A stretch of DNA of 64,000 bases, taken from NCBI RefSeq assembly GCF_024623785.1, contig NZ_JANKBZ010000011.1, positions 186,001 through 250,000 of the forward strand, given 5' to 3'. The position numbers were made by a program, and so were the translations under genes. Source of the stretch: Archangium lipolyticum (GTDB taxonomy: Bacteria; Myxococcota; Myxococcia; Myxococcales; Myxococcaceae). How positions within the stretch are numbered: position 1 is the stretch's first letter; each line of letters begins with the position of its first letter. The notes under the pieces are model-generated. The model was not told where the DNA came from, made no database searches, and saw only the letters and a list, made by a program, of their open reading frames with translations. Shown here piece after piece: positions 3,943 through 28,779 of this stretch.

Positions 3943-5675
3943 GGGGAGGCGGGGCTGAACTCGGCGACGACCACGGTGATGTCGTCCTGGGCGGGCAGAC
4001 CGGCGCTGAAGGCGCGCGCGTCGGCCAGGATGGCATCACGCAGACCCTCGGCGGACAGATGCGCGTTGGCCTGGAGGGCGGCGGCCAGGCGCTGGGTGCC
4101 ATACTGCTTCTGACTGGCGTCACGCGACTCGGTGAGACCGTCCGTGTACCAGACGATGACGTCACCGGGGCGCAGCTGGGCCTGGCGCGAGGCGTACTGG
4201 GAGCTGGCGGAGGCGCCCAGCAGCGCGCCGCGGGCGGGCAGCGAGGCCACCTGGCGCGAGAGGCGGTTGTAGACGATGGGGCTGGGGTGGCCACCGCTCG
4301 CGTAGTCGACGACGCCCGTCTGCACGTCGATGACGGCCAGCGCGCTCGACATCTGGTGCTCGCCCCGGCCCACGTGGGACATGGTGACGTTGAGCGAGGA
4401 GATGAGGACCTGGGCGGAGAGCTCCTCCGGCGAGCGCATCGTCATGGCGGCGGTGAAGCCGCTGGTGGCGCTGGTGGCCACCAGGGCGGTGGCGAGACCG
4501 TGGCCGGTGACGTCGCCGATGCCCACCACCACGCGCCGCTCGTCCAGGGAGGCGCGCATCCACCAGTCGCCGCCGCAGGCATCCGCGGTGACGACGAGGC
4601 CGGCGATGCGCAGGGGGCCGGCCTGGAAGCCCTCGCGGCCGGGCAGCAGCGTCTCCTGCACGGTGCGCGCGAGCGACACGTCGCGCTCCAGCTGGGCCTT
4701 GGTGCGCACGTCCTCGAGCAGCACCTTGATGCGCTCGGCCATGTGGTTGAACACCACGCCGAGCGTCGTCACCTCGCGTCCGGCGCCGCGGGCCTGCTCG
4801 GCGCGCGCGCCCAGGTCTCCGGCGGCCAGCTGCATCACCTTGCCGGTGAGCACGCCCAGCGGCCGGGTGATGCGGCGGCTCTGGAAGGCCACCAGCACGC
4901 CGGCCAGCAGCACGAAGCCCAGACCCAGGCCCGACATGGTGGTGGCGTTGCGGCGCAGCGACTCGCGCTTGGTCTCCTCCAGATCGCTCAGCTGCTTCTG
5001 CAGCACCTCCATCGAGTAGCTGATGACGACCAGCCCCTGGCCACTCTGCGAGCCGTAGTCGATGGGCTCCTGGTACACGATGATGGGCTTGCCCTGGAAG
5101 AGCCCGTTCTCCCAGTCGCGCTTCGGCTTGCGCGTGGTGGGGGTGCCCAGCTTCGCGTCCGGAGCGGAATCCGCGGCGAGCTGGCTGTCCGCGTCGTAGA
5201 TCTGCACGCGCAGGATGTTGGGATTGTCGGTGATGATGGAGCGCGCCACCTCACTGAGGAAGGCGTAGTTGTTGTCGCGCAGCGAGGTGGCCGAGGTGAG
5301 CGACAGGGTGTGGCTGACCGTCTGGCCGAGCTCGCGGGCCTGCTGCTCGATCTGCGAGCGGAAGCGCGCGGAGGACTCCTCGAACTGGGCCTTGGTGGAG
5401 ACCCAGGCCACGGAGGCGAGCAGGCCCACGATGACGCCCACCAGGATGCCGGTGGTGATGAAGAGGAGCTGATCCAACCGTGGGCCGCGGATGGCCGCCA
5501 CATCGGGCAGCTCGCCGGCCTCCAGCGGGGCGACGATGGTCCCCGTCATCTCCGGATGGAGCGGGGAGAGCTTCGTCGACGTGAGGCCCGCGACACGGGT
5601 GGCCGTGAAGGTGGGCTCGTGCTGTTCGAACGACCCCTCGGGTGGGGGCTGGGAAGGCAGCGGGGCGTTGGACAA
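3939..5675 (-). CDS. Membrane SpoIIE/PP2C-type protein phosphatase with HAMP domain
   Basis: This 578-residue protein resembles RsbU/SpoIIE-type serine phosphatases that control partner-switching regulators. It has a cytoplasmic N-terminus, a first membrane helix near residues 70-92 (LLFITTGILVGVIVGLLAS), an extracytoplasmic sensor of about 150 residues, a second helix near 245-266, a HAMP linker (RRITRPLGVLTGKVMQLAAGD), and a catalytic domain from about 350. The catalytic domain shows DACGGDWW and IGDVTGHGLATAL, which carry the metal-binding Asp/Gly pattern. Its substrate is expected to be an anti-anti-sigma-type protein, but none is encoded here. It is the first gene of a coupled operon with an exported TPR protein and an orphan binding protein. 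Confidence 0.9.
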   Translation of the reverse strand: MSNAPLPSQPPPEGSFEQHEPTFTATRVAGLTSTKLSPLHPEMTGTIVAPLEAGELPDVAAIRGPRLDQLLFITTGILVGVIVGLLASVAWVSTKAQFEESSARFRSQIEQQARELGQTVSHTLSLTSATSLRDNNYAFLSEVARSIITDNPNILRVQIYDADSQLAADSAPDAKLGTPTTRKPKRDWENGLFQGKPIIVYQEPIDYGSQSGQGLVVISYSMEVLQKQLSDLEETKRESLRRNATTMSGLGLGFVLLAGVLVAFQSRRITRPLGVLTGKVMQLAAGDLGARAEQARGAGREVTTLGVVFNHMAERIKVLLEDVRTKAQLERDVSLARTVQETLLPGREGFQAGPLRIAGLVVTADACGGDWWMRASLDERRVVVGIGDVTGHGLATALVATSATSGFTAAMTMRSPEELSAQVLISSLNVTMSHVGRGEHQMSSALAVIDVQTGVVDYASGGHPSPIVYNRLSRQVASLPARGALLGASASSQYASRQAQLRPGDVIVWYTDGLTESRDASQKQYGTQRLAAALQANAHLSAEGLRDAILADARAFSAGLPAQDDITVVVAEFSPASP

Positions 5676-6157
5676 GGTGGAACTCTGTGGGGGGGCGCTG
5701 GGGGGCGCGACGGCGTTGAAACAGGGAGAGCGGAAGCGACTTTAGCGCACTTTTCCGATTAGGCGAGTACCCCTGTGAGCCCACCAAGTGAATCCTGAGA
5801 ATCTGGGAGCCCCCTCTCCCACGGGTCCATCCTCTCTCGATACGGCCCCCCTGACACGTGGCGTATGTGCTCGCTCGCATGCCGCCGCGCGCGCACGTGG
5901 GCATGACCTGGCGGGTCCTGAAGCCGAGGCTCCCAGCCTGGGCTCCCCCATCAGCCGCCCTGCTGGCTGCCAACAGTCCCTTCCCATCTGGAAACGAGCA
6001 TCTCACGCGGGCGGTGTGTTCACCGTAACGGGCCGTCCGTCTACGCCGCGGCGCGGCATGTTCGGCGGGCCCGTGACATCCACGGCGTGCTTGAGCGCCG
6101 GGGGCACCTTTGCGGTATAGGGGGCCCCGTCCTTTTCCCTCTGACAGAGAGACGCGC
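5676..6157. other. 482-bp gene-free divergent intergenic region
   Basis: This region separates the phosphatase operon (minus) from the E1 operon (plus), so it should hold two promoters. Possible reading frames inside have no family resemblance and poor codon structure. A weak sigma-70-like pair for the E1 operon can be proposed: TTGAGC at 6091-6096 and GTATAG at 6115-6120 with an 18-bp spacer. A small inverted repeat (TGGGAG/CTCCCA) lies near 5804-5821. No conserved RNA is recognised. Confidence 0.5.
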
Positions 6158-7165
6158 GTGCCAAAACCCCGCCTTCTCAACCGCGATGAAGATTCGCTCC
6201 CGCTCGATCGGGAGCTCCTGGTCCGGATGCACGACCTGATGGTGAAGGCGCGCGTCCTCGAAGAGCGCCTCATCCAGATGTACAAGCAGGGCCACGGGTA
6301 CTTCTGGATTGGAGGCCCGGGTGAGGAGGCCTTCAACGTCCCCCTCGGCCTGCTGATGAAGAAGGGCCAGGGCCCGGCCTACGACTACCTGCACGCGCAC
6401 TACCGCCAGTCGGCCACGATGATGGCCCTGGGCGAGGATCCCATCGGTGCGCTGCGGCAGATGAAGAACGTGGCCGCGGACCCCTACTCCGGCGGCCGCA
6501 ACTTCGCGGGCCACTTCTCCAAGCGCGAGTGGAACATCGCCCCGGTCTCCTCCCCCATCGAGGTCCAGTACGCGATGGCCCCGGGCACCGCGCTGGCGCA
6601 GAAGCGCCACGGCGGCGACGGCATCTCCATCGTCACCGGCGGTGACGCGGGCACGGCCGAGGGCGATTTCGCCTCGTGCCTGGTGTGGAGCTCGCGCCCC
6701 GGCAACGAGCTGCCCATCCTCATCATCGTCACCAACAACAAGTGGGGCATCTCCACGCCGGGGGAGACCCAGCACGGAGAGACGCACATCGCGGATCGCG
6801 GCAAGGCATTCAACATCCGCACCAAGACGATCGACGGCAACGATCCGATCAACTCCTACCTCGAGCTGAAGGAGGCGATGGAGTACGTGCGCAAGGAGCG
6901 CAAGCCGTTCCTCCTGGAGGCGATGGTGTCGCGCCTGTACGGGCACTCGTCGGCGTCCGGCGCCAACTTCGTGGGCAACGAGCAGGACTGCCTGGCCGTC
7001 TTCGAGGAGCGCCTGGAGAAGCACGGCATCCTCACGCGCAAGGAGATGGACGAGCTGCGCAACCGCTACACCGAGGACATGGCCGCCATGGCCCGTCAGG
7101 TCCGCGAGGAGCCGCTGCCGGCCCCCGAGACCATCTGGAACCACATCTTCGCGGAGAGGAAGTAA
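6158..7165 (+). CDS. Thiamine-diphosphate dehydrogenase E1 component, alpha subunit
   Basis: This is the alpha subunit of a 2-oxoacid dehydrogenase E1 (branched-chain 2-oxoacid or pyruvate type), which decarboxylates the 2-oxoacid and passes the acyl group to lipoyl-E2. The thiamine-diphosphate signature is visible as GDAGTAEGDF (about residues 162-171) followed by VTNNKWGIST. HYRQSATMMALG and GHFS are typical substrate and cofactor loops. I chose the GTG at 6158, which follows a purine-rich GACAGAGAGAC and gives the usual N-terminus MPKPRLLN; a longer frame to 6110 lacks support. The beta subunit starts 3 bp after its stop. In myxobacteria a branched-chain E1 supplies isovaleryl-CoA for iso-fatty acids and E-signalling (esg locus), but the substrate here is not proven. 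Confidence 0.9.
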   Translation: MPKPRLLNRDEDSLPLDRELLVRMHDLMVKARVLEERLIQMYKQGHGYFWIGGPGEEAFNVPLGLLMKKGQGPAYDYLHAHYRQSATMMALGEDPIGALRQMKNVAADPYSGGRNFAGHFSKREWNIAPVSSPIEVQYAMAPGTALAQKRHGGDGISIVTGGDAGTAEGDFASCLVWSSRPGNELPILIIVTNNKWGISTPGETQHGETHIADRGKAFNIRTKTIDGNDPINSYLELKEAMEYVRKERKPFLLEAMVSRLYGHSSASGANFVGNEQDCLAVFEERLEKHGILTRKEMDELRNRYTEDMAAMARQVREEPLPAPETIWNHIFAERK

Positions 7166-7168
7166 CCC

Positions 7169-8224
7169 ATGGCCAACATGGCACAGGCCGTTCGCATGGC
7201 CCTGCACTACGCCGAGGAGCACCTCGGCGTCACCGACATCTTCGGCGAGGACGTGGGCGCCCCCCTGGGCGGCGTCTTCACCGCCACGCAGGGCCTCAAG
7301 ACGGCGTGGAACTCGCCCCTGGACGAGCGCGGCATCATCGGCATGGCCATCGGTCTGGCCATGGCCGGCTCGAAGCCCGTCGCGGAGATCCAGTTCGCCG
7401 ACTACATCTTCAACACCATCGACCTGTTGAAGATCGCCGGCAACACCTGCTGGGCCACCAACGGGGACTGGAACCTGCCCATGGTCGTGAAGACCCCGGT
7501 GGGCAGTGGCATCCGCGGGTCCATCTACCACTCGCACTCCTTCGACGCGACGGCCACGCACATCCCGGGCTGGAAGATCGTCATCCCCTCCAACCCGCTG
7601 GATGCGTACGGGCTGATGATCTCCGCCTGCCAGGAGATCAACCCCGTCATGTACCTGGAGCCCAAGGCGCTCTTGCGCATCAAGGGCGAGGAGCGGATTC
7701 CGGGCGAGCCCGAGGACGACAAGCTGCTGTCGAAGATGATCGACGCGCCGCTGGGAGACCGCTCGCAGTGGAAGCCGCAGTGGCCGCAGCTCGAGGCGTA
7801 CGCGGTGCCCATCGGCAAGGGCAAGGTGGTGCGCGCGGGCTCGCAGGTGACGGTGGTGAGCTACGGCCGCACGCTGCCGCTGTGCAAGAAGGCCGCGGAC
7901 GACCTGGCCGCCGAGGGCGTGGACGCCGAGGTCATCGACATGCGCACCCTGTGGCCCTACGACTGGGAGCTCATCAAGGGCTCCGTCGAGAAGACGGGCC
8001 GCGTGCTCTACGTGAACGAGGACACCGAGGTGACCAACTTCGGCGAGCACCTGGTGCGCCGCACGGTCGAGGAGCTCTTCTACAAGCTGATGGCGCCTCC
8101 TCGGCTGCTCGCTGGCAAGTTCGTTCCGGGCATCGGCCTGGCGGACACGCTGGAGATGGCCTCGGTGCCCCAGCAGGGCGACGTCACCGCCGCCATCCGC
8201 TCGCTGGCGTCCGAGCAGCCCTGA
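7169..8224 (+). CDS. Thiamine-diphosphate dehydrogenase E1 component, beta subunit
   Basis: This 351-residue protein is the partner of the preceding E1-alpha. Family landmarks include the acidic FGEDVG, the DERGIIGMAIGLAMAGSKPVAEIQF block, SHSFDATATHIPGWKIVIPSNP, and the C-terminal transketolase part EVIDMRTLWPYDWELIKGSVEKTG and NEDTEVTNFGEHL. The latter is closer in style to branched-chain than to classical pyruvate E1-beta subunits. An AGAGGAAG Shine-Dalgarno sequence inside the end of the alpha gene precedes the ATG. Heterotetramer formation with the alpha subunit is expected. No E2 or E3 gene is present nearby, so the rest of the complex must be encoded elsewhere. The operon ends in a strong hairpin. 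Confidence 0.92.
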   Translation: MANMAQAVRMALHYAEEHLGVTDIFGEDVGAPLGGVFTATQGLKTAWNSPLDERGIIGMAIGLAMAGSKPVAEIQFADYIFNTIDLLKIAGNTCWATNGDWNLPMVVKTPVGSGIRGSIYHSHSFDATATHIPGWKIVIPSNPLDAYGLMISACQEINPVMYLEPKALLRIKGEERIPGEPEDDKLLSKMIDAPLGDRSQWKPQWPQLEAYAVPIGKGKVVRAGSQVTVVSYGRTLPLCKKAADDLAAEGVDAEVIDMRTLWPYDWELIKGSVEKTGRVLYVNEDTEVTNFGEHLVRRTVEELFYKLMAPPRLLAGKFVPGIGLADTLEMASVPQQGDVTAAIRSLASEQP

Positions 8225-8253
8225 TTCCCGTGTCACGGTAGGCGGAAGTGTGC

Positions 8254-8288
8254 GAGGGCGGCCCGGAGAAGAGTCCGGAGCCGCCCTC
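8254..8288 (+). terminator. Strong hairpin after the E1 operon
   Basis: GAGGGCGGC (8254-8262) pairs with GCCGCCCTC (8280-8288), and inside it CCGGA pairs with TCCGG around a GAAGAG loop. This gives a 14-bp stem with one bulged A, 30 bp after the E1-beta stop. A poor T-run follows, as is common in high-GC genomes. Confidence 0.75.
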
Positions 8289-8323
8289 TACCTTTGCGAG
8301 GTCGCCCCCCCCTTGGATAGACT

Positions 8324-8824
8324 GTGCGAGCCGTGCAACCGATCCCCACAAGAACCCCCGCCCCGGACGCTCCCTCCTTCCGCATCCGCCGTGCTCGCCG
8401 CGGTGACGCCGAGAGCCTGGCCGCGCTCCTGCGAGAGATGGGTTACCCCCATGGCTCGGACGCCCAGACGGTCCACTGGGTCATCAGCCATCCGGAGATC
8501 GAGATCTTCGTGGCGGCGGATCTGCAGGATCGCCCCGTGGGCATGGTGTCGCTGTCCCACCGGCCGCAGTTGAGGCTGCGCGGGCGCGTGGCCACGGTGG
8601 ACGAGCTGGTGGTGACCGAGAGCTGGCGGCGCCGCGGCGTGGGCCGGGCCCTCATGCAGCAGGTCATCGAGCGCTGTGGCGCGCGTGCGCTGAGCGTCAA
8701 GCGGCTCGAGGTGTGCTCCTACGGTCAGGAGGAGCTACGGGGCTTCTACGAGTCCTGCGGCTTCGTGAAGATGGACCGGCAGGTGCTGCGCTACGTCGAG
8801 CTGGAAGGCCAGCACGGCCAGTAG
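8324..8824 (+). CDS. GNAT-family N-acetyltransferase
   Basis: This 166-residue protein has the GNAT fold: an N-terminal IRRARRGDAESLAALLREMGY, a central strand VDELVVTESWRRRGVGRALM (acetyl-CoA pyrophosphate loop, R-x-x-G-x-G/A type), and the C-terminal GFYESCGFVKMDRQVLRY. The acceptor substrate cannot be told from sequence. The start is a GTG at 8324; a second in-frame GTG lies three codons on. It stands alone between the E1 terminator and a convergent PilZ gene. Confidence 0.85.
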   Translation: MRAVQPIPTRTPAPDAPSFRIRRARRGDAESLAALLREMGYPHGSDAQTVHWVISHPEIEIFVAADLQDRPVGMVSLSHRPQLRLRGRVATVDELVVTESWRRRGVGRALMQQVIERCGARALSVKRLEVCSYGQEELRGFYESCGFVKMDRQVLRYVELEGQHGQ

Positions 8825-10400: not shown

Positions 10401-10498
10401 TCGAGCAGCCACGTCCCTCCGACAGTACCGGCTGAGTACCCGCTGGCACGGCGCGAGGGAGCCCTCGTCTCTTCCCACCTGAGCGTCGCGTCTCGCCA

Positions 10499-10529
10499 CG
10501 GAGCGTCTCCGGCGCCCCGCCGTGGGCGC
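10499..10529 (+). promoter_or_regulatory. Paired hairpins upstream of the dioxygenase start
   Basis: Two adjacent inverted repeats lie between the leader peptide and the dioxygenase: CGGAG-CGT-CTCCG (10499-10511) and GCGCCC-CGCCGT-GGGCGC (10512-10529). They share the base at the junction and end 20 nt before the GAGGAG ribosome-binding site. A shorter repeat (CGAGG/CCTCG) lies near 10454-10467. They could form alternative attenuator structures; no T-run follows. Confidence 0.4.
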
Positions 10530-10562
10530 GTGCTCGGGCCATTCCCGCCAGAGGAGTGTCCG

Positions 10563-11633
10563 ATGCCCATTGCCCGATTCGAGCCCCACGACGATTTCCT
10601 GCGCGTCCACTTCGCCGCTGGAGAGAGCCCGCGCCACGCCGACTTCCACTGGTTCTGGTTGCGGCACAACTCCGAGCTGGACCGGCACCCCCTCACCCGC
10701 GAGCGCATCGTCTGCTCCTCCGAGCTGCCGCTCGAGCCCCACCCCCGCCTCGTGCGTCTCACCGAGGACGCGGCCGCCCTCGATATCGACTGGGGCGACC
10801 GCTCCGACGGGCAGGTGAGCCGCTACGCCGCCGACTGGCTCCGCGAGCACGCCTATGCGGCCGACCGGGTCCCCTCCCCCGCCCCTCCCTCCGACAGCGC
10901 GGCCATCACCGTGGAGGCCTCGCGTCTGGACGAGCCGCTCGGGCGCTTCACCGTGCGCACCGTCCAACGCACCGGAGCCCTCATCGTGCGCGGCTTCGGC
11001 ACCGACACGGAGTCCCTCATCGACGCCATCGGCCGCGAGGGACTCTCCGTCATCGAGACCCACTTCGGGCGCATCGAGGATCTGCGCACCGACAACACGA
11101 CGAACCGCAACACCGACCAGCTCGGCTACACGGACAGCGCCATCCAACTGCACACGGATCAGCCCTTCCTCGACAGGCCGCCGCGCTACCAGCTCCTGCA
11201 CTGCCAGCAACCCGCGGACACGGGAGGCGACAACTTCGTGGTGGACGCGCTCGCGGCGGCGCACCACCTGGCCGATCTCGACCGGCCCGCCTTCGACCTG
11301 CTGCGCACGGTGCCGGTGACCTTCCACCGCAAGCAGAAGTCCTTCGAGCGCGTGCTCGTCTCGCCCATCCTCGACTTCGACGCGCCCGGCGGCTTCCGCA
11401 TCCGCTACAGCTACTTCACCCTCGCACCCCACCGCCGGCCCTTCGCCGAGATGGAGGCGTGGTACCGCGCGTACAACCGCTTCGCGAGGCTCGTGCGGGA
11501 CGAACGCCACCAGTACCGCTTCCGCCTCGAGAAGGGCGACTTCCTCATCTACGACAACTGGCGCATGCTCCACGCGCGCACGAACTTCACCGGCGCCCGC
11601 TGGGTGCGGGGCGTGTACTTCGACGCCGCGTAG
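10563..11633 (+). CDS. TauD/gamma-butyrobetaine-hydroxylase-like 2-oxoglutarate dioxygenase
   Basis: This 356-residue Fe(II)/2-oxoglutarate oxygenase has an N-terminal DUF971-like domain (about residues 10-90, FHWFWLRHNSELDRHPLTRER) and a C-terminal TauD-fold domain. The iron facial triad is visible as LHTDQP (H-x-D, about residue 196) and the distal His in NWRMLHARTNF (about 335), with the 2-oxoglutarate Arg in RWVRGVYFD. The N-terminal domain lacks the cysteine cluster that binds zinc in eukaryotic gamma-butyrobetaine hydroxylases. The ATG at 10563 follows GAGGAG by 6 nt; a longer frame from 10530 is less likely. The Cys-rich leader upstream hints at a sulfur-related substrate, but this is a guess; carnitine-type substrates remain possible. 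Confidence 0.85.
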   Translation: MPIARFEPHDDFLRVHFAAGESPRHADFHWFWLRHNSELDRHPLTRERIVCSSELPLEPHPRLVRLTEDAAALDIDWGDRSDGQVSRYAADWLREHAYAADRVPSPAPPSDSAAITVEASRLDEPLGRFTVRTVQRTGALIVRGFGTDTESLIDAIGREGLSVIETHFGRIEDLRTDNTTNRNTDQLGYTDSAIQLHTDQPFLDRPPRYQLLHCQQPADTGGDNFVVDALAAAHHLADLDRPAFDLLRTVPVTFHRKQKSFERVLVSPILDFDAPGGFRIRYSYFTLAPHRRPFAEMEAWYRAYNRFARLVRDERHQYRFRLEKGDFLIYDNWRMLHARTNFTGARWVRGVYFDAA

Positions 11634-22613: not shown

Positions 22614-25600
22614 TCACGGAGAGAACGAGGCACAGACGCGCACGCCGATCGCTGCGTCGCGCGCCGTCGGATCGCCAACGGAAATGTTCGCGATGTGCGC
22701 GCCAAAGTCATCGTAGTACCAGGCCCCGCCCCGCAGGACGACGCGCCCGAACTCCGGTGTCACGGAGCGTGTGATCTCGAAGGCGTTGCCGGCCATGTCC
22801 TCCAGCCCGAAGGGGCTCACCGAGACCGGGTGGGAGCCGACCATGTCGGGTCCGAAGGCCGTGGGCCGCCGTTCATAGGTCGTGTCGATGTTGGCGTCGT
22901 CGGGCAGCAGCTGGTCGCCGTGGGGGTAGCGGCGGCCATCCGCACCGCGAGCGGCGTACTCCCACTCGTTCTGGGTGCACAGGCGCGCTCCCGGAAGACG
23001 TCCCGTATGGTCAAGCCAGTAGAAGTAGCCCGCCAGATCCTCGGCGGAGACGCCGGACAGGGGAAACTGGCGCCAGTCGGCGGTGTTCCGCCGGGTCCTC
23101 CCCGGATAGTGGAAGGTCTCCCCCTCTCTCGCCGTGAAGACGTCCTCGCGTGAACGGTAGAAGGAGAAGACCCAGCCCACGCCGGGTTGCTGCCGCAGCG
23201 AGACCGCCCCGGTGGCGCTGAAGCGCGGCTGCTCGAGGATCCGTCTCGCTGGCGCATCCGGGGACAGGTCGTCGAGGTAGGTCAGCCAGTCGCCGAACGT
23301 CACCTCTCTCTGTCCGATCAGATATCCCTCGTTGAGACAGAACCGGTGGAGCGGCGGGCTGAGCATGAAGCCCCGCACCTCCTCCGGCTCGGCACTGCCC
23401 AGCAGGAAGCACCCGGACGGGATGAAGACATAGCCGGCCGGCACCGTGGTGGGGAGCGTGAGGCGGATCCGCTCGCTGGCACCGTGCGTGAGGAGCAGCG
23501 GCAGCTCCATCGGCACGCGCCCTGGATGCGTGACGTGGAGGAGATAGGAGCCCTCGGGCAGCAGGACGCGGGAGAGGGGCGTCGGTCCCAGGGAGCCCGC
23601 CTCCGGAACGGGCACGCGGAGCCGCGTCCCCTGGACGTCGGTGTAGCGCTCGATCTCGACGCGGGCGCCGGGGGGCTCCGTCACCAGCTCGAGCTCGGCC
23701 GGAGCCAGGAACCGTCGCCGCCACTCCGCGCCCTCCTTCGCGGTATCGGTCACCTGCACCAGGTGCTGGACCCATTCGTCGCGCTCGCGCCGCTGGTGGA
23801 AGCGCTCGGCGAGGAGGAGCCGTTCATAGGTGACCTCCGCGATGAGCTGGCGCGTGCCCGCATGGCCACGATCGCGATCGAGGGCCTTCTCGAGGGTCCG
23901 GCTGGCCCAGGCGTAGGCCTCATGGGCCTGCTCGCGCAAGGTGAGTGCCTCGGTCCATTGCCGCTCGGCGGCTTTCCTGAGGTCATGGGGGCCCGGCAGG
24001 GTCTCGAGACCAGCGGACGGAGAAGGCCGGCCGTCGAACAGCGCCAGTGCATCCTCCTGGCGCAGGCCGGCCCGCTGCGCGAGGGCGCGCCCCTCGGCGA
24101 GCGCTTCCCTCGCCGTGGCGACCTGGGCGGCGACGAAGCGCGCGTCCTCGAGGTACGCCTGCAGGCGCAGGCCCCCGTAGGAGGCGGCGACGGCCAGCGC
24201 GAGGACGAGCGCGGCGAGCCATCGGCCCCAACGCTGGCGCACCACGGCGCGGTGGGAGGCGAGGAGGAAGGCACGCTCGCGCGCCCCCAGGGTAGAGGGC
24301 TCGAGCGCACGGGCCTCGTCGAGCTGACGCTGTCCCCAGAGGGCCTCCCTGGTGCGCATCAGGCGCTCCCACTCGGCGCTCGCCGCCTCGAGCCGTTTGC
24401 GCACCGCGCGATGGCCGATGTCATCGTCGAGCCAGTCGCGGAGCGTCTCCCAGCTCTGGATGAGCGAGTCATGGGCGATCTCGTAACGTGGCTGGCCACG
24501 AGCGGTGCGCGTGTGCAGGAGGCGGCCCTCGACGAGCGCGCGAAGGGCCGCGAGGGACGGCCCATCCGAGGCCTCGACGAGCTCCTCCTCACCCCGCTCG
24601 ATGCGCGTCCCCTCCGCCGTCACGAGTTGGAGGAGGAGCCGCCGCGCTGCCTCGCGCTCGGCGGGACTCAGGCGCGCGAGCACCCCATCCGCGTGCCGTG
24701 ACAGCGCTCCAGCCACTCCACCCATCTCGTCGAGCGCCGCCCGTGTGATGCGGCCTCGCGCCGGGTCTCGCCGCTCCCACAGCTCGGCGAGCGCGAACTG
24801 GAGCAGCGGCAAGCTGCCCACGCCGTGCGCCGTGGACGCGACGAGCATCTGGACGAGCTCGGCGGATTCGAAGACCACGCCACGGCCGCGCGCGGGGCCG
24901 ACGATGGCCTCGCGCACGCCCTCGGGAGACATGGGGCGGAGGATGTAGAGCGCCCGCTCGGCCTCCTCGCCCAGGCCGGGCAGGGAGCACAGGCGCGTCA
25001 GGAAATCACCGCGCACCGCCAGCAGGACGCGCACCGCCTCCGACGGCAGGGCGAGCTCCCCGAGGATACGGGCGAAGTGCGCCGCCTGGACCGGCTCGGA
25101 GAGGGTGATGAGCTCCTCGAGCTGATCGATGAAGAGGAGCAGGCGCCGTCCGCCCTGGTGCGCCTCGCGCAGCGCCCGCCCGAGCCAGCCCGGCGAGTCC
25201 GCGAGCGCGGTGACGAGCTCCGCCTCCTTCCGTCCCAACAGGGGCGCGAGTGCGGCGGCCAGGGCCTCGAGTGGGCGGTGGCCGGGCCACAACGTGACGG
25301 GAATCCGCTCACGCGCCTCGTCCAGGGCCCCGGCGGCCACCTGGGGCAGCACACCGGCGCGGCACAGCGAGGACTTGCCGGCGCCTGAGTCCCCGGCGAC
25401 GAGGACGAGGGGCCGGTGGCGGAGGCGCTCGAGCACGGCGCGGATGTCCGCGTCGCGTCCGAAGAAGAGCTCCCGGTGCTCGGCCTCGAAGGGCGCGAGG
25501 CCCCGGTAGGGATTTCCGGCGACCAGGGGCGCGGGGGCACTGCTGCGCTCGAGGCGTTCGAGGGCCTCGCAGAGCACCTCCGCCGAGGCGAAGCGCTCCA

Positions 25601-26579
25601 TCGGGTCGGGCGCGAGGCACCGCGCGATGATCGCGGCGAAGTCCGGGTCGATCCCCTGCCCTGCTCCAACTGGTGGGGGCCCCTCCTCCGGACGCCGGGG
25701 TGTGCCCCGCGGCACCTCGCCCGTGCACAGCTCGTGGAGCACGAGGCCCAGCGCATGGAGATCGCTTCTCGGAGTCGCCGGAGCACGCTCCAGCAGCTCC
25801 GGCGCCATGTAGGGCCGCGTGCCGACGAGGAGGTGCGTGCTGGAGGCCGGTGAGTCCGCCCCCGGCTCGAAACGCTCGGCCAACCCGAAGTCGAGCAGCT
25901 TCACCTCGCCGTCCTCGGTGAGGAGGGCGTTGGACGGCTTGAGGTCGCGGTGGAGCACGCCCTGGCGATGCGCCGCCGCGAGCCCCCGGGCGAGACCGAT
26001 GCCGAGCGTCAGGACCCGGCGCCACGGCACCGGCAGTGGCAGCTCCGCGAGGCTCTGGCCGACGACGTACTCGGAGACGATGTACGGGTGCCCGCCGACC
26101 TCACCGACGCGGAACACGTTGACGACGTTGGGGTGCTGCAGCCGGGCGATGGCACGGGCCTCGGTCTCGAAGTACGCGCGGACCCAGGGCTCGGGCTGAC
26201 TCGAGGCGATGAACTTCACCGCCACGTGCCGGTCCAGCGAGGTGTCGTACGCCAGGTAGACGACGCCCATGCCGCCGCGGCCGAGCAGGCGCACGAGGCG
26301 GAACTCGTCGAACGCGTCGGGTGGCGTCCAGGGGACACCCGGCTCCTCCACGGTGACGGTGGCCGGAACTGGAACTTCCGGGACGCTCCGCTCCACCCCC
26401 AGACCCCCGCGCGAGACCGAGGCGAGGAGGAGCCGGCAGGCGTCGCACCCGGCGGAGTGACGATGGGCACGAGCCAGCGCCTCGTCCGGCAACCGGCCAT
26501 CGAGGAGATCGACGAGGACATCGTCCGTCAGACAACCGGATGCGCTCGGCCCGCTGTCACTGGGAGTGGACTGACGCAT
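22614..26579 (-). CDS. Zinc-finger/Ser-Thr kinase/nSTAND ATPase/FGE-like multidomain regulator
   Basis: This 1321-residue protein has, in order: an anti-sigma-like zinc motif HSAGCDAC (H-x3-C-x2-C, about residue 43); a Ser/Thr kinase (about 92-345) with GRGGMGVVY, VAVKF, HRDLKPSN and DFG; an nSTAND-type ATPase (about 353-740) with Walker A GDSGAGKSS and Walker B LLLFIDQLEEL; and a membrane helix near 785-803. After the helix come a helical region, a PEGA-like beta segment, and a C-terminal formylglycine-generating-enzyme-like domain (about 1048-1321, IGQREVTFGDWL, LPGARLCTQNEWEYAARG, VVLRGGAWYYDD). That domain lacks the FGE catalytic Cys pair, so it is probably a ligand-binding sensor. It is divergent from a sigma-factor gene 90 bp away. 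Confidence 0.9.
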   Translation of the reverse strand: MRQSTPSDSGPSASGCLTDDVLVDLLDGRLPDEALARAHRHSAGCDACRLLLASVSRGGLGVERSVPEVPVPATVTVEEPGVPWTPPDAFDEFRLVRLLGRGGMGVVYLAYDTSLDRHVAVKFIASSQPEPWVRAYFETEARAIARLQHPNVVNVFRVGEVGGHPYIVSEYVVGQSLAELPLPVPWRRVLTLGIGLARGLAAAHRQGVLHRDLKPSNALLTEDGEVKLLDFGLAERFEPGADSPASSTHLLVGTRPYMAPELLERAPATPRSDLHALGLVLHELCTGEVPRGTPRRPEEGPPPVGAGQGIDPDFAAIIARCLAPDPMERFASAEVLCEALERLERSSAPAPLVAGNPYRGLAPFEAEHRELFFGRDADIRAVLERLRHRPLVLVAGDSGAGKSSLCRAGVLPQVAAGALDEARERIPVTLWPGHRPLEALAAALAPLLGRKEAELVTALADSPGWLGRALREAHQGGRRLLLFIDQLEELITLSEPVQAAHFARILGELALPSEAVRVLLAVRGDFLTRLCSLPGLGEEAERALYILRPMSPEGVREAIVGPARGRGVVFESAELVQMLVASTAHGVGSLPLLQFALAELWERRDPARGRITRAALDEMGGVAGALSRHADGVLARLSPAEREAARRLLLQLVTAEGTRIERGEEELVEASDGPSLAALRALVEGRLLHTRTARGQPRYEIAHDSLIQSWETLRDWLDDDIGHRAVRKRLEAASAEWERLMRTREALWGQRQLDEARALEPSTLGARERAFLLASHRAVVRQRWGRWLAALVLALAVAASYGGLRLQAYLEDARFVAAQVATAREALAEGRALAQRAGLRQEDALALFDGRPSPSAGLETLPGPHDLRKAAERQWTEALTLREQAHEAYAWASRTLEKALDRDRGHAGTRQLIAEVTYERLLLAERFHQRRERDEWVQHLVQVTDTAKEGAEWRRRFLAPAELELVTEPPGARVEIERYTDVQGTRLRVPVPEAGSLGPTPLSRVLLPEGSYLLHVTHPGRVPMELPLLLTHGASERIRLTLPTTVPAGYVFIPSGCFLLGSAEPEEVRGFMLSPPLHRFCLNEGYLIGQREVTFGDWLTYLDDLSPDAPARRILEQPRFSATGAVSLRQQPGVGWVFSFYRSREDVFTAREGETFHYPGRTRRNTADWRQFPLSGVSAEDLAGYFYWLDHTGRLPGARLCTQNEWEYAARGADGRRYPHGDQLLPDDANIDTTYERRPTAFGPDMVGSHPVSVSPFGLEDMAGNAFEITRSVTPEFGRVVLRGGAWYYDDFGAHIANISVGDPTARDAAIGVRVCASFSP

Positions 26580-26669
26580 GGAGTCGATGGGCTCAGGCTA
26601 GCCGCGTGCCGATCGCCGCTCAATGGCCCCCGTTGATGGCCCGAAGAAGCGCATGGTACAGGGACGAGA
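26580..26669. promoter_or_regulatory. Short divergent promoter region, kinase versus sigma factor
   Basis: Ninety bases must carry promoters and 5' leaders for both the kinase gene and the sigma-factor gene, so joint regulation is likely. I cannot pick a convincing -35/-10 pair by eye. Confidence 0.4.
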
Positions 26670-27605
26670 ATGGAGCAGGTGCCAGGGTTGGCCGCGACGT
26701 TTCTCGCCCACGCGAAGGTGCGCTTCGTTCCACCCGCGGATGCCTCCGAGCTCGAAGGTCTGCTCGTCCGGACCTGGGAGACCGCCCGTGCGCAGTGGCC
26801 GGCCGTGAATCTTCCCGCCGAGCCATTCGTGAAACACCTCGCCGAGCGGCTGCCCGAGGCAAATCCAGACAGCCCCATCGAGCCGCTGCTCGCGCAGCTG
26901 TCCCTGGCGGAGCTCTACCTCGCATGCGCCTGTCTGAGGGGTCTTCCCGCCGCCATCGGGCTCTTCGAGCGGAACTACCTCGCGAAGCTGCCGGGGCTGC
27001 TCCGGGGTCCCAAGCAGCCCGAGGCGATGATCGACGACGTCTGCCAGCTGGCGCGCGTGAAGCTCCTGGTCCCCACTCCCGAAGGGGACCCGAAGATCGC
27101 CGAGTACACGGGACGAGGCGCGCTGCTGAGCTGGGTGCGTGTCACCGCCGTGCGCATCGCCATCAAGCTGCAGGCCGGCCAGAAGCCCGCTCCCGATCAA
27201 GACTCGGACACCGTGTTCGAGGCGTTGCCGGCGCCGGGAATGGACGCGGAGCTGGACCTCATCAAGCGGCGCTACCACAACGACTTCCGCCAGGCCGTGC
27301 GCGAGGCCTTCTCCGAGCTCCCGGCGGACGATCGCCACCTGCTGCGCCTCTACTTCGTCGATCAGCTCTCGATGTACGAGCTGGCCTCGCTCTTTCGCGT
27401 CAATCAATCGACGGTCTCCCGTTGGTTGAAGAGTGCCCGGCAGGAGATCTACGAGGACACCCGGCGCCGTCTGCAGGCGCGGCTGGGCCTCTCCACCGGT
27501 GACTTCAAGAGCTTCCTGGCCGTCCTCGACAGCCAGCTCGATCTGAACATCAGCCAGCTCCTGGGGAAGGCGGACGGAGGGAGCCGGACTCCAGGGAAGG
27601 ACTGA
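26670..27605 (+). CDS. Sigma-70 family RNA polymerase factor, Myxococcales type
   Basis: This 311-residue sigma factor of extracytoplasmic-function layout resembles the Myxococcales-specific Sig-70_gmx1 group. An N-terminal extension of about 80 residues precedes the region-2 equivalent (AELYLACACLRGLPAAIGLFERNYL...IDDVCQLARVKLLV...YTGRGALLSWVRVTAVRIAI). The region-4 helix-turn-helix is clear (ELPADDRHLLRLYFVDQLSMYELASLFRVNQSTVSRWLKSARQEIYED). A C-terminal extension of about 50 residues follows. It is divergent from the zinc-finger kinase gene, which makes that protein the likely controller. Confidence 0.87.
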   Translation: MEQVPGLAATFLAHAKVRFVPPADASELEGLLVRTWETARAQWPAVNLPAEPFVKHLAERLPEANPDSPIEPLLAQLSLAELYLACACLRGLPAAIGLFERNYLAKLPGLLRGPKQPEAMIDDVCQLARVKLLVPTPEGDPKIAEYTGRGALLSWVRVTAVRIAIKLQAGQKPAPDQDSDTVFEALPAPGMDAELDLIKRRYHNDFRQAVREAFSELPADDRHLLRLYFVDQLSMYELASLFRVNQSTVSRWLKSARQEIYEDTRRRLQARLGLSTGDFKSFLAVLDSQLDLNISQLLGKADGGSRTPGKD

Positions 27606-27631: not shown

Positions 27632-28666
27632 CTACGGGGCTCCATAGGACTGGTTGCGCAGCAGCGCCGTTCCGGGGCTCGCGTCCGCGCGGCGCACCAT
27701 GCAGCGGTCCCCCCCACCCAGCTCGAGCGCCGCGCCCTTCTGGAAACGGTTGGGACACTCCTCGAGGATCGTCGCCAGTGCGCGGCCGTCGCGGGTCCGG
27801 GCCAGGCAGGTGGCGCCGTCGGGAGCCCACGCCGCTTCGAACGAGGCCCGCGCGGGATCCCAGCCGTCGACGGCCTCCGTCGTCCGCGCGAGCACGCCGA
27901 GCCGATCGTACATGTCGATGGCGGTGTCCTGGTACGTGTGGCTGCGGCCGTTGCCGCAGTAATCCGCGCGAGCCATGCGCGTGCAGGCCTGATGGAGGTC
28001 GGCCAGTGAATGCCCGTCGCGGCGCTCCCAGGGCTTGTAGCCCCAGCGGATGCACTTGGTGATGGCGCCGTTCTCACAGGCGAAGGTGAGCTTGCCCGGG
28101 ACGTCCTGGCGTGCGCCGCTCGCGTCCCAGACGCCGCCCACCGCGAGCGCCCGGGGGTCGGGCACGCGATCCAGGGCGACGCAGGGGTTCTCCCACTCCT
28201 GGGCCACCGCGTTCCACGCCTCGATGCGGTACCAGACCATCCCGGGATCCTCGGGGGCGGGCTCGGCGCCGCAGATGGCCACCTCCACGGGCTTGCCGTC
28301 GCTCGCCGTGCCCTGGAGCACGGTGCCGACGACGCCCTTCCCCGAGGCCACCAGACGTCCGCCCTCGAGGGTCAGGGCCTTCGTCCCGGCATCCGCCTGG
28401 CGCAGGGGCGCGAGGTCCACCGAGACGAGCACGCTGCTCACCTCGGGAGCCGTCTTCTCGGTGTCCCAACTGCGCTTGGTGCCCCACAGCATCGTCCCCT
28501 GGGGCTTGACGGTGCGGTGAGGTGCCTGGGACTGGCACCGCCGCGCGTAGCGCTCGGCCTCGGACACCTGGACGGCCGTACGCTGGGGTTTCGCGGTGGC
28601 CGGAGTGGCGGCTTGAGCCAGCGCGGGAATCTGAAGGCACATCCAGGCGAGCAGGTACTTCTTCAT
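27632..28666 (-). CDS. Exported ADYC-domain protein
   Basis: This 344-residue secreted protein has a signal peptide (MKKYLLAWMCLQIPALAQAA). It contains the signature ARADYCGNGRSHTYQDTAIDMYD that names the ADYC domain of myxobacterial exported proteins. Paired cysteines (CENGAITKCIRWGYKPW, CTRMARADYC, CLARTRDG, CPNRFQKG, CMVRR) suggest disulfides in a periplasmic or extracellular location. Function of the family is unknown. The ATG at 28666 is preferred over two in-frame GTG codons just upstream because it gives the cleanest signal peptide. Confidence 0.75.
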   Translation of the reverse strand: MKKYLLAWMCLQIPALAQAATPATAKPQRTAVQVSEAERYARRCQSQAPHRTVKPQGTMLWGTKRSWDTEKTAPEVSSVLVSVDLAPLRQADAGTKALTLEGGRLVASGKGVVGTVLQGTASDGKPVEVAICGAEPAPEDPGMVWYRIEAWNAVAQEWENPCVALDRVPDPRALAVGGVWDASGARQDVPGKLTFACENGAITKCIRWGYKPWERRDGHSLADLHQACTRMARADYCGNGRSHTYQDTAIDMYDRLGVLARTTEAVDGWDPARASFEAAWAPDGATCLARTRDGRALATILEECPNRFQKGAALELGGGDRCMVRRADASPGTALLRNQSYGAP

Positions 28667-28779
28667 CACGGTCACCGTTTTCCGTGGGTCGAGTTCACGA
28701 GGGGCTCGAACGACTGGCCCACATCCGTTCAGAGCCGGTGACTTGGAGAATCATGCGGAAAATTCGTGAGGGACCGCGC

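Follow-up and report, generated by a model that had tools for sequence, protein, structure and literature searches.

A putative anti-sigma-type zinc domain at the head of myxobacterial receptor kinases paired with a TIGR03001 sigma factor

How could a single membrane protein pass an outside signal to transcription when its gene lies beside that of a sigma factor? The question is raised by a locus of Archangium lipolyticum (genome of 12.6 Mb), contained in a stretch of 64,000 nt that we call the window (contig NZ_JANKBZ010000011.1, positions 186,001-250,000 of the forward strand; positions given here are numbered within it). An earlier note on this DNA described a kinase of 1321 aa (22614-26579, minus strand) and, divergent from it, a sigma-70 factor of 311 aa (26670-27605, plus strand), with 90 bp (26580-26669) between the two start codons, and both open reading frames (ORFs) lie at these places. 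A third gene, for an ADYC-domain protein (27632-28675, minus strand), falls outside the 22614-27605 covered by that note. Judged from sequence comparisons, the N-terminal zinc motif of the kinase is a domain of the anti-sigma type, predicted to bind and inhibit the sigma factor, which is of the extracytoplasmic function (ECF) type. The pairing of kinase and sigma factor recurs in many myxobacteria and across several kinase designs. We think it rather probable that the kinase is a one-piece membrane receptor holding its own sigma factor in check.

The zinc domain and the receptor that it heads

The zinc domain occupies residues ~13-58 of the kinase (26406-26543, minus strand). The earlier note recognised its H-x3-C-x2-C motif, which is present, and missed a fourth ligand, Cys16, a Cys in all 65 aligned domains. 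The site thus comprises four ligands, C16-x24-H41-x3-C45-x2-C48, and the first Cys and HxxxCxxC are found together in 65/65 aligned N-termini of zinc-bearing kinases. Conservation of the motif, on which the note's reading depended, is borne out among the kinases paired with a sigma gene, since 112 of 116 carry the four-ligand pattern and four do not. The 22-row profile of the domain used below omits loci L163 and L167, while alignment A5 omits L163, L165 and L167, which were not chosen, and L170 and L175, which have stops in the chosen stretch.

The note's assignment of the motif to the anti-sigma type also held. Pfam zf-HC2 (PF13490) was matched by all 16 domains scanned, a sample of the 65, with a best E-value of 4.8e-10; the window's domain alone gave 19.2 bits (E 0.0013), below the cut-off of 22.2. 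When the 22-row profile was compared with PDB sequences at E<=10, six matches were obtained, the first four being DdvA, 3hug_B and two ChrR chains. The entry 3hug_B is labelled a conserved membrane protein, and we take it to be the anti-sigma factor RslA. A model of the domain (89 aa; mean predicted local distance difference test score, pLDDT, 71.8) had RsiW as its best Foldseek row, and four of the seven rows were RsiW, DdvA or ChrR, every row having E>1. Against 15 chains, the matches listed included RsiW (Z 4.2, root-mean-square deviation 10.4) and ChrR (Z 3.2, root-mean-square deviation 5.6). In the host genome, a 16-domain profile gave 13 matches at E<1e-13; ten of these kinases are intact, and the other three are truncated remnants. 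Its weaker matches include ORFs adjoining ECF sigma genes (C2:470644, C30:75754 and C19:45862), as expected for anti-sigma factors.

Two side observations concern this domain. The three remnants (L176, L177 and L178) are truncated zinc-domain kinases without an intact TIGR03001 sigma gene, and L177 retains kinase and sigma pieces, of 97 and 28 residues, resembling the second C42 pair. PDB 8rot_B, a CHAT-domain protein of 991 aa, gives a weak match to the zinc-domain profile (E 0.52) and is perhaps another large protein headed by a zinc domain of this type.

The remainder of the protein joins the parts that the earlier note had listed. Pfam places Pkinase at residues 94-337 (25569-26300; 2e-43), nSTAND1, an NTPase domain, at 357-743 (24351-25511; 1.2e-103) and FGE-sulfatase at 1049-1315 (22635-23435; 3.7e-21), and a hydropathy peak predicts a membrane helix at 788-806 (24162-24218), all on the minus strand. 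Residues 826-1048 gave one chance-level match and a weak PEGA match (residues ~997-1039, 23463-23591, minus strand; 14.4 bits, below the cut-off of 20.8). A scan of the FGE tails of 41 relatives found C-x4-C in none, in agreement with the note; C-x4-C is, we assume, the catalytic Cys pair of formylglycine-generating enzyme (FGE), a pair that the FGE-like domain lacks.

The kinase domain is of the Hanks Ser/Thr type, with catalytic Lys (VAVK), HRD (HRDLKPSN) and DFG. An unlikely explanation of the protein is that it works as a classical anti-sigma factor, whose N-terminal domain sequesters the sigma factor until proteolysis or a change of shape releases it, the kinase domain serving other substrates. 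Both the zf-HC2 match and the conserved pairing described below agree with this explanation, but the Lys, HRD and DFG motifs are kept in 112/116 paired kinases, across several kinase designs, which speaks against it.

Pairing of kinase and sigma gene

Zinc-domain kinases lie within 5 kb of a TIGR03001-like sigma gene in 116 of the 128 loci examined, a co-occurrence that the earlier note had proposed to test. The pairing was seen in 9/9 loci of the host genome, 54/55 of a class sample made up of the highest-scoring loci, 23/24 of named genomes and 30/40 of a distant sample (40 of 111 matches, at least one from each of 29 genomes, chosen for contig room); the class and distant samples were hand-picked and not random. 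All nine TIGR03001 sigma genes above cut-off in the host genome adjoin a zinc-domain kinase. The 116 pairs comprise 50 divergent, 40 with the kinase first, 23 with the sigma gene first and 3 convergent. Among the 12 unpaired loci, L183 and L206 are cut by contig ends, and in L199 and L203 the zinc and kinase pieces lie in separate frames; the other eight are the three loci with zinc-free kinases and the five lacking a partner kinase that are taken up further on. With the limit narrowed to 1.5 kb, 145 kinases (five of 150 frames having been omitted for fewer than 200 aligned residues) divide into 110 with domain and sigma gene, 7 with the domain only, 8 with the sigma gene only and 20 with neither. 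As a side observation, L160 of Pyxidicoccus caerfyrddinensis holds two divergent kinase-sigma pairs side by side, the second sigma gene cut by the end of the locus, perhaps a tandem duplication.

A natural control is offered by the FGE-type kinases, defined as the 68 places in 18 genomes that match the window's kinase at E<=1e-150. The 21 that align from residue 13 or earlier, and hence carry the zinc domain, all have a TIGR03001 sigma gene within 3.5 kb, whereas the other 47, whose alignment does not reach into the N-terminal domain, are all without one (Fisher 5e-18, relatedness ignored). Thus, the possibility raised in the earlier note that homologues of the kinase usually lack a neighbouring sigma gene is true of the family at large (47/68), and it is exactly the kinases not aligned through the domain that lack it. 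Neither HxxxCxxC nor a zinc-profile match at E<=0.1 was found in the 40 of these 47 kinases that were fetched, and HxxxCxxC was likewise not found in four more read in the host genome, 3/47 remaining outside this reading. Chance and annotation artefact are rejected by this split and by the 116/128 pairing.

The descent of these kinases was followed in a tree of 41. When the other three domain-less kinases are taken as the root, the domain-less kinase C49 falls inside the domain-bearing group, and a tree keeping the 37 domain-bearing rows as one clade was rejected (p-AU 0.0037). We read C49 as a probable joint loss of zinc domain and sigma gene, the alternative being two gains. The distances among sigma factors correlate with those among zinc domains (r 0.86 in 116 pairs; 0 of 2000 shuffles as high), equally in 37 divergent long kinases and in the other 79 (r 0.84 in each).

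It could be argued that zinc domain and sigma factor never touch and that their co-occurrence is the hitch-hiking of neighbours in a duplicating family. The few independent changes fit this explanation, as do the distance correlations, which co-inheritance would produce. However, the zinc domain is of a recognised anti-sigma type, the pairing persists through different orientations and kinase lengths, and ADYC still adjoins the C49-type kinase, which has neither the domain nor a sigma gene; we regard mere hitch-hiking as very improbable.

The sigma factor and the ADYC protein

The sigma factor was confirmed as such, and its family could be refined: it matches NCBIfam TIGR03001 ('Sig-70_gmx1, Myxococcales family 1'), an ECF-type family of Myxococcota, with 326.4 bits against a cut-off of 154.6, over model positions 1-243 of 244. 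Sigma70_r4_2 is above its cut-off and TIGR02937 (sigma70-ECF) reaches 58.5 bits against 42.9; the Pfam region-2 model gave no match at E<=0.1. Six chains match the structure model (mean pLDDT 76.7) at E<=0.001, and sigmaE and SigW are represented among them. TIGR03001 is above cut-off in 108 of 195 Myxococcota genomes, a sample heavily weighted to the window's own family; counted by genus in that sample, 38/90 have a match at E<=1e-20.

In region 2.2 of 64 sigma sequences, position 123 is acidic in all, position 122 in 53, and Gln126 is invariant; with the DxxDxxQE motif placed by eye on the alignment, the commonest residues at its first Asp and last Glu are non-acidic. The ECF43-type combination, in which uncharged residues and a target Thr replace the acidic motif, is not found in this sigma factor. 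Since it keeps acidic residues in region 2.2, it need not regain charge by phosphorylation as EcfP does. Charge restoration of the EcfP kind is thus disfavoured, and the analogy with EcfP/PknT drawn in the earlier note is weakened, the acidic residue kept at position 123 being lost in EcfP-type sigma factors. After sigma-4 there is a conserved C-terminal extension, whose S281 (63/64) and S288 (54/64) are possible candidates for phosphorylation.

Region 2.2 also bears on a positive design, in which the zinc domain does no more than dock the sigma factor, and the kinase phosphorylates the docked protein and so switches it on, in the way of PknS with EcfK and PknT with EcfP; without phosphate the sigma factor would be inactive. 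The acidic positions 122 and 123 require no borrowed charge, yet most sequences no longer have the first Asp and the last Glu of DxxDxxQE. Zinc domains of the anti-sigma type normally inhibit sigma factors, and this too speaks against docking for activation, which we consider doubtful. In its favour, the catalytic motifs are intact in nearly all paired kinases (112/116), and kinase-activated ECF sigma factors exist, according to PMC8999054 and PMC13147305, the latter describing an N-terminal extension of 83 aa in PknS. PMC8999054 and PMC8103513 state that ECF43 sigma factors have lost the acidic motif and regain charge by phosphorylation. In further ECF groups linked to kinases, according to PMC8999054, an acidic motif is retained, and these may work otherwise, by a mechanism not known.

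Shortly 5' of the sigma ATG, within 26580-26669, stands a TTG ... CATGGTA-like pattern common to many aligned relatives, which may be a promoter whose transcript is almost without a leader. A scan of 26380-26800 for sigma-70 consensus promoters gave no match.

The ADYC protein (347 aa) matches PF20032 with 186.4 bits against a cut-off of 27, and by eye its N-terminus resembles a signal peptide. Its gene is present in 36 of 37 loci of the window's type (it was not found in L196), placed convergently after the sigma gene or after the kinase on the kinase's strand. It also adjoins domain-less, sigma-less kinases (L088, L090 and L091). In five genomes, ADYC lies within 4.5 kb of 21/24 FGE-type kinases (8/8 with the zinc domain, 13/16 without), and 23/27 ADYC genes have such a kinase at no more than this distance, these surroundings making up 0.48% of the genome sequence. 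A separate sample had ADYC in 12 of 58 Myxococcota genomes; genomes such as G011, G146, G150 and G154 have the sigma factor, and no ADYC was found in them in that sample, which indicates that ADYC follows the sensor type and not the sigma family at large. That ADYC is a mere target of the sigma factor is disfavoured, as it also adjoins sigma-less FGE kinases, but it may be both partner and target. Other neighbours were rejected as conserved partners on their counts in the 37 loci: TGT (1/37), a methyltransferase (1/37) and a PhoD-like gene (2/37).

A proposed one-piece receptor and its relation to known systems

We divide the locus into input (ADYC and the FGE-like domain), relay (nSTAND and kinase) and output (anti-sigma domain and sigma factor); binding, phosphorylation and the direction of control are what we infer. 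In the off state, the cytoplasmic N-terminal zinc domain would bind the TIGR03001 sigma factor and hold it at the membrane in inactive form. An outside condition would be sensed by the FGE-like domain on the far side of the helix, with secreted ADYC as ligand or co-sensor, and assembly of nSTAND1 would then bring kinase domains together. In the least certain step, the kinase would act in cis on the anti-sigma domain, its linker or the bound sigma factor, which would be freed or activated. Of the two, release seems to us the likelier, given that zinc domains of the anti-sigma type act as inhibitors and that the core-binding motif of the sigma factor is not neutralised. More tentatively, the locus could represent a class of one-piece receptors in several Myxococcota families, in which anti-sigma domain and Ser/Thr kinase share one protein, phosphorylation in cis frees a captive sigma factor and sensors are swapped, the sensor here being of the FGE fold and having a secreted ADYC protein of its own, which acts as ligand or co-receptor. 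As a whole, the interpretation of the earlier note is supported in part, by the zinc domain, its conservation and its tracking of the sigma factor; Cys16, the ADYC partner and the pairing across other kinase designs had escaped it.

Several observations weigh against a receptor that restrains its sigma factor. The structure matches of the 89-aa zinc-domain model are weak, and a single predicted helix is the basis for assigning the receptor's parts to the cytoplasm or the exterior. The tracking of zinc domain with sigma factor is largely shared descent, with few independent changes; the independent-pairs test, with four well-supported pairs (on average, sigma differing the same way in 1.8, the opposite way in 0.6 and not at all in 1.6), has no power. 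The distance correlation is expected for co-inherited neighbours and thus speaks for a stable partnership, not for contact. In five loci the sigma gene is more than 5 kb from any partner kinase or has none (L096, L173, L184, L201 and L219; in L096 an unrelated kinase lies 4.1 kb off, and no other was found). Three kinases adjoining sigma genes (L200, L210 and L218) lack the zinc ligands, the paired kinase L158 has Tyr in place of Cys45, and L092 holds an intact zinc-domain kinase (5570-8722) and no TIGR03001 sigma gene in its 16-kb locus.

Two of these cases have further features. By eye, the N-termini of L200, L210 and L218 keep the helical pattern and resemble zinc-free anti-sigma domains. 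In L092, the zinc-domain kinase is 1.7 kb from the gene of a different ECF-type sigma factor (10402-11223), after which comes a second kinase gene.

If the proposed receptor is real, outside signals would be linked to gene expression by a route that may be undescribed. Ser/Thr kinases and sigma factors are both very numerous in myxobacteria, and at loci of this type one defined class of the former is coupled to one defined family of the latter; a direct prediction follows for the path from signal to transcription, and the ADYC domain acquires a role open to testing. Anti-sigma sequestration and kinase control, listed apart in reviews, would be united, and a function would be assigned to the ADYC family. 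The single parts all belong to known kinds; it is the fusion and the ADYC link that seem new, the literature search not having been aimed at ADYC. The fusion was not found described in the open-access literature by a weak search, whose scope left out most subscription papers and the 2021 ECF reclassification in Nucleic Acids Research, so that a prior mention is possible. The TIGR03001 family description may already mention neighbouring kinases.

Among known systems, the zinc anti-sigma factors RsiW, ChrR and DdvA resemble the N-terminal domain in zf-HC2 profile, in zinc ligands, as its best structure and sequence matches and in standing beside an ECF-type sigma factor, but they are small proteins, whereas the domain here heads a kinase-nSTAND-FGE receptor of 1321 aa. 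In EcfP/PknT of Vibrio and EcfK/PknS of Xanthomonas, which belong to group ECF43, an ECF sigma gene likewise adjoins that of a membrane Ser/Thr kinase. The TIGR03001 sigma factor differs from EcfP and EcfK in keeping acidic residues in region 2.2, and the kinase differs from PknT and PknS in its zinc domain of the anti-sigma type; 9eed_A, a 364-aa 'Kinase domain protein' that is possibly PknS 1-364 (identity unconfirmed), was not among the PDB matches of the zinc-domain profile. Related, too, are the zinc anti-sigma factors phosphorylated in trans by PknB, where, according to PMC8999054, a Ser/Thr kinase frees a sigma factor by way of its anti-sigma factor. In the receptor proposed here, by contrast, kinase and anti-sigma domain would belong to a single chain.

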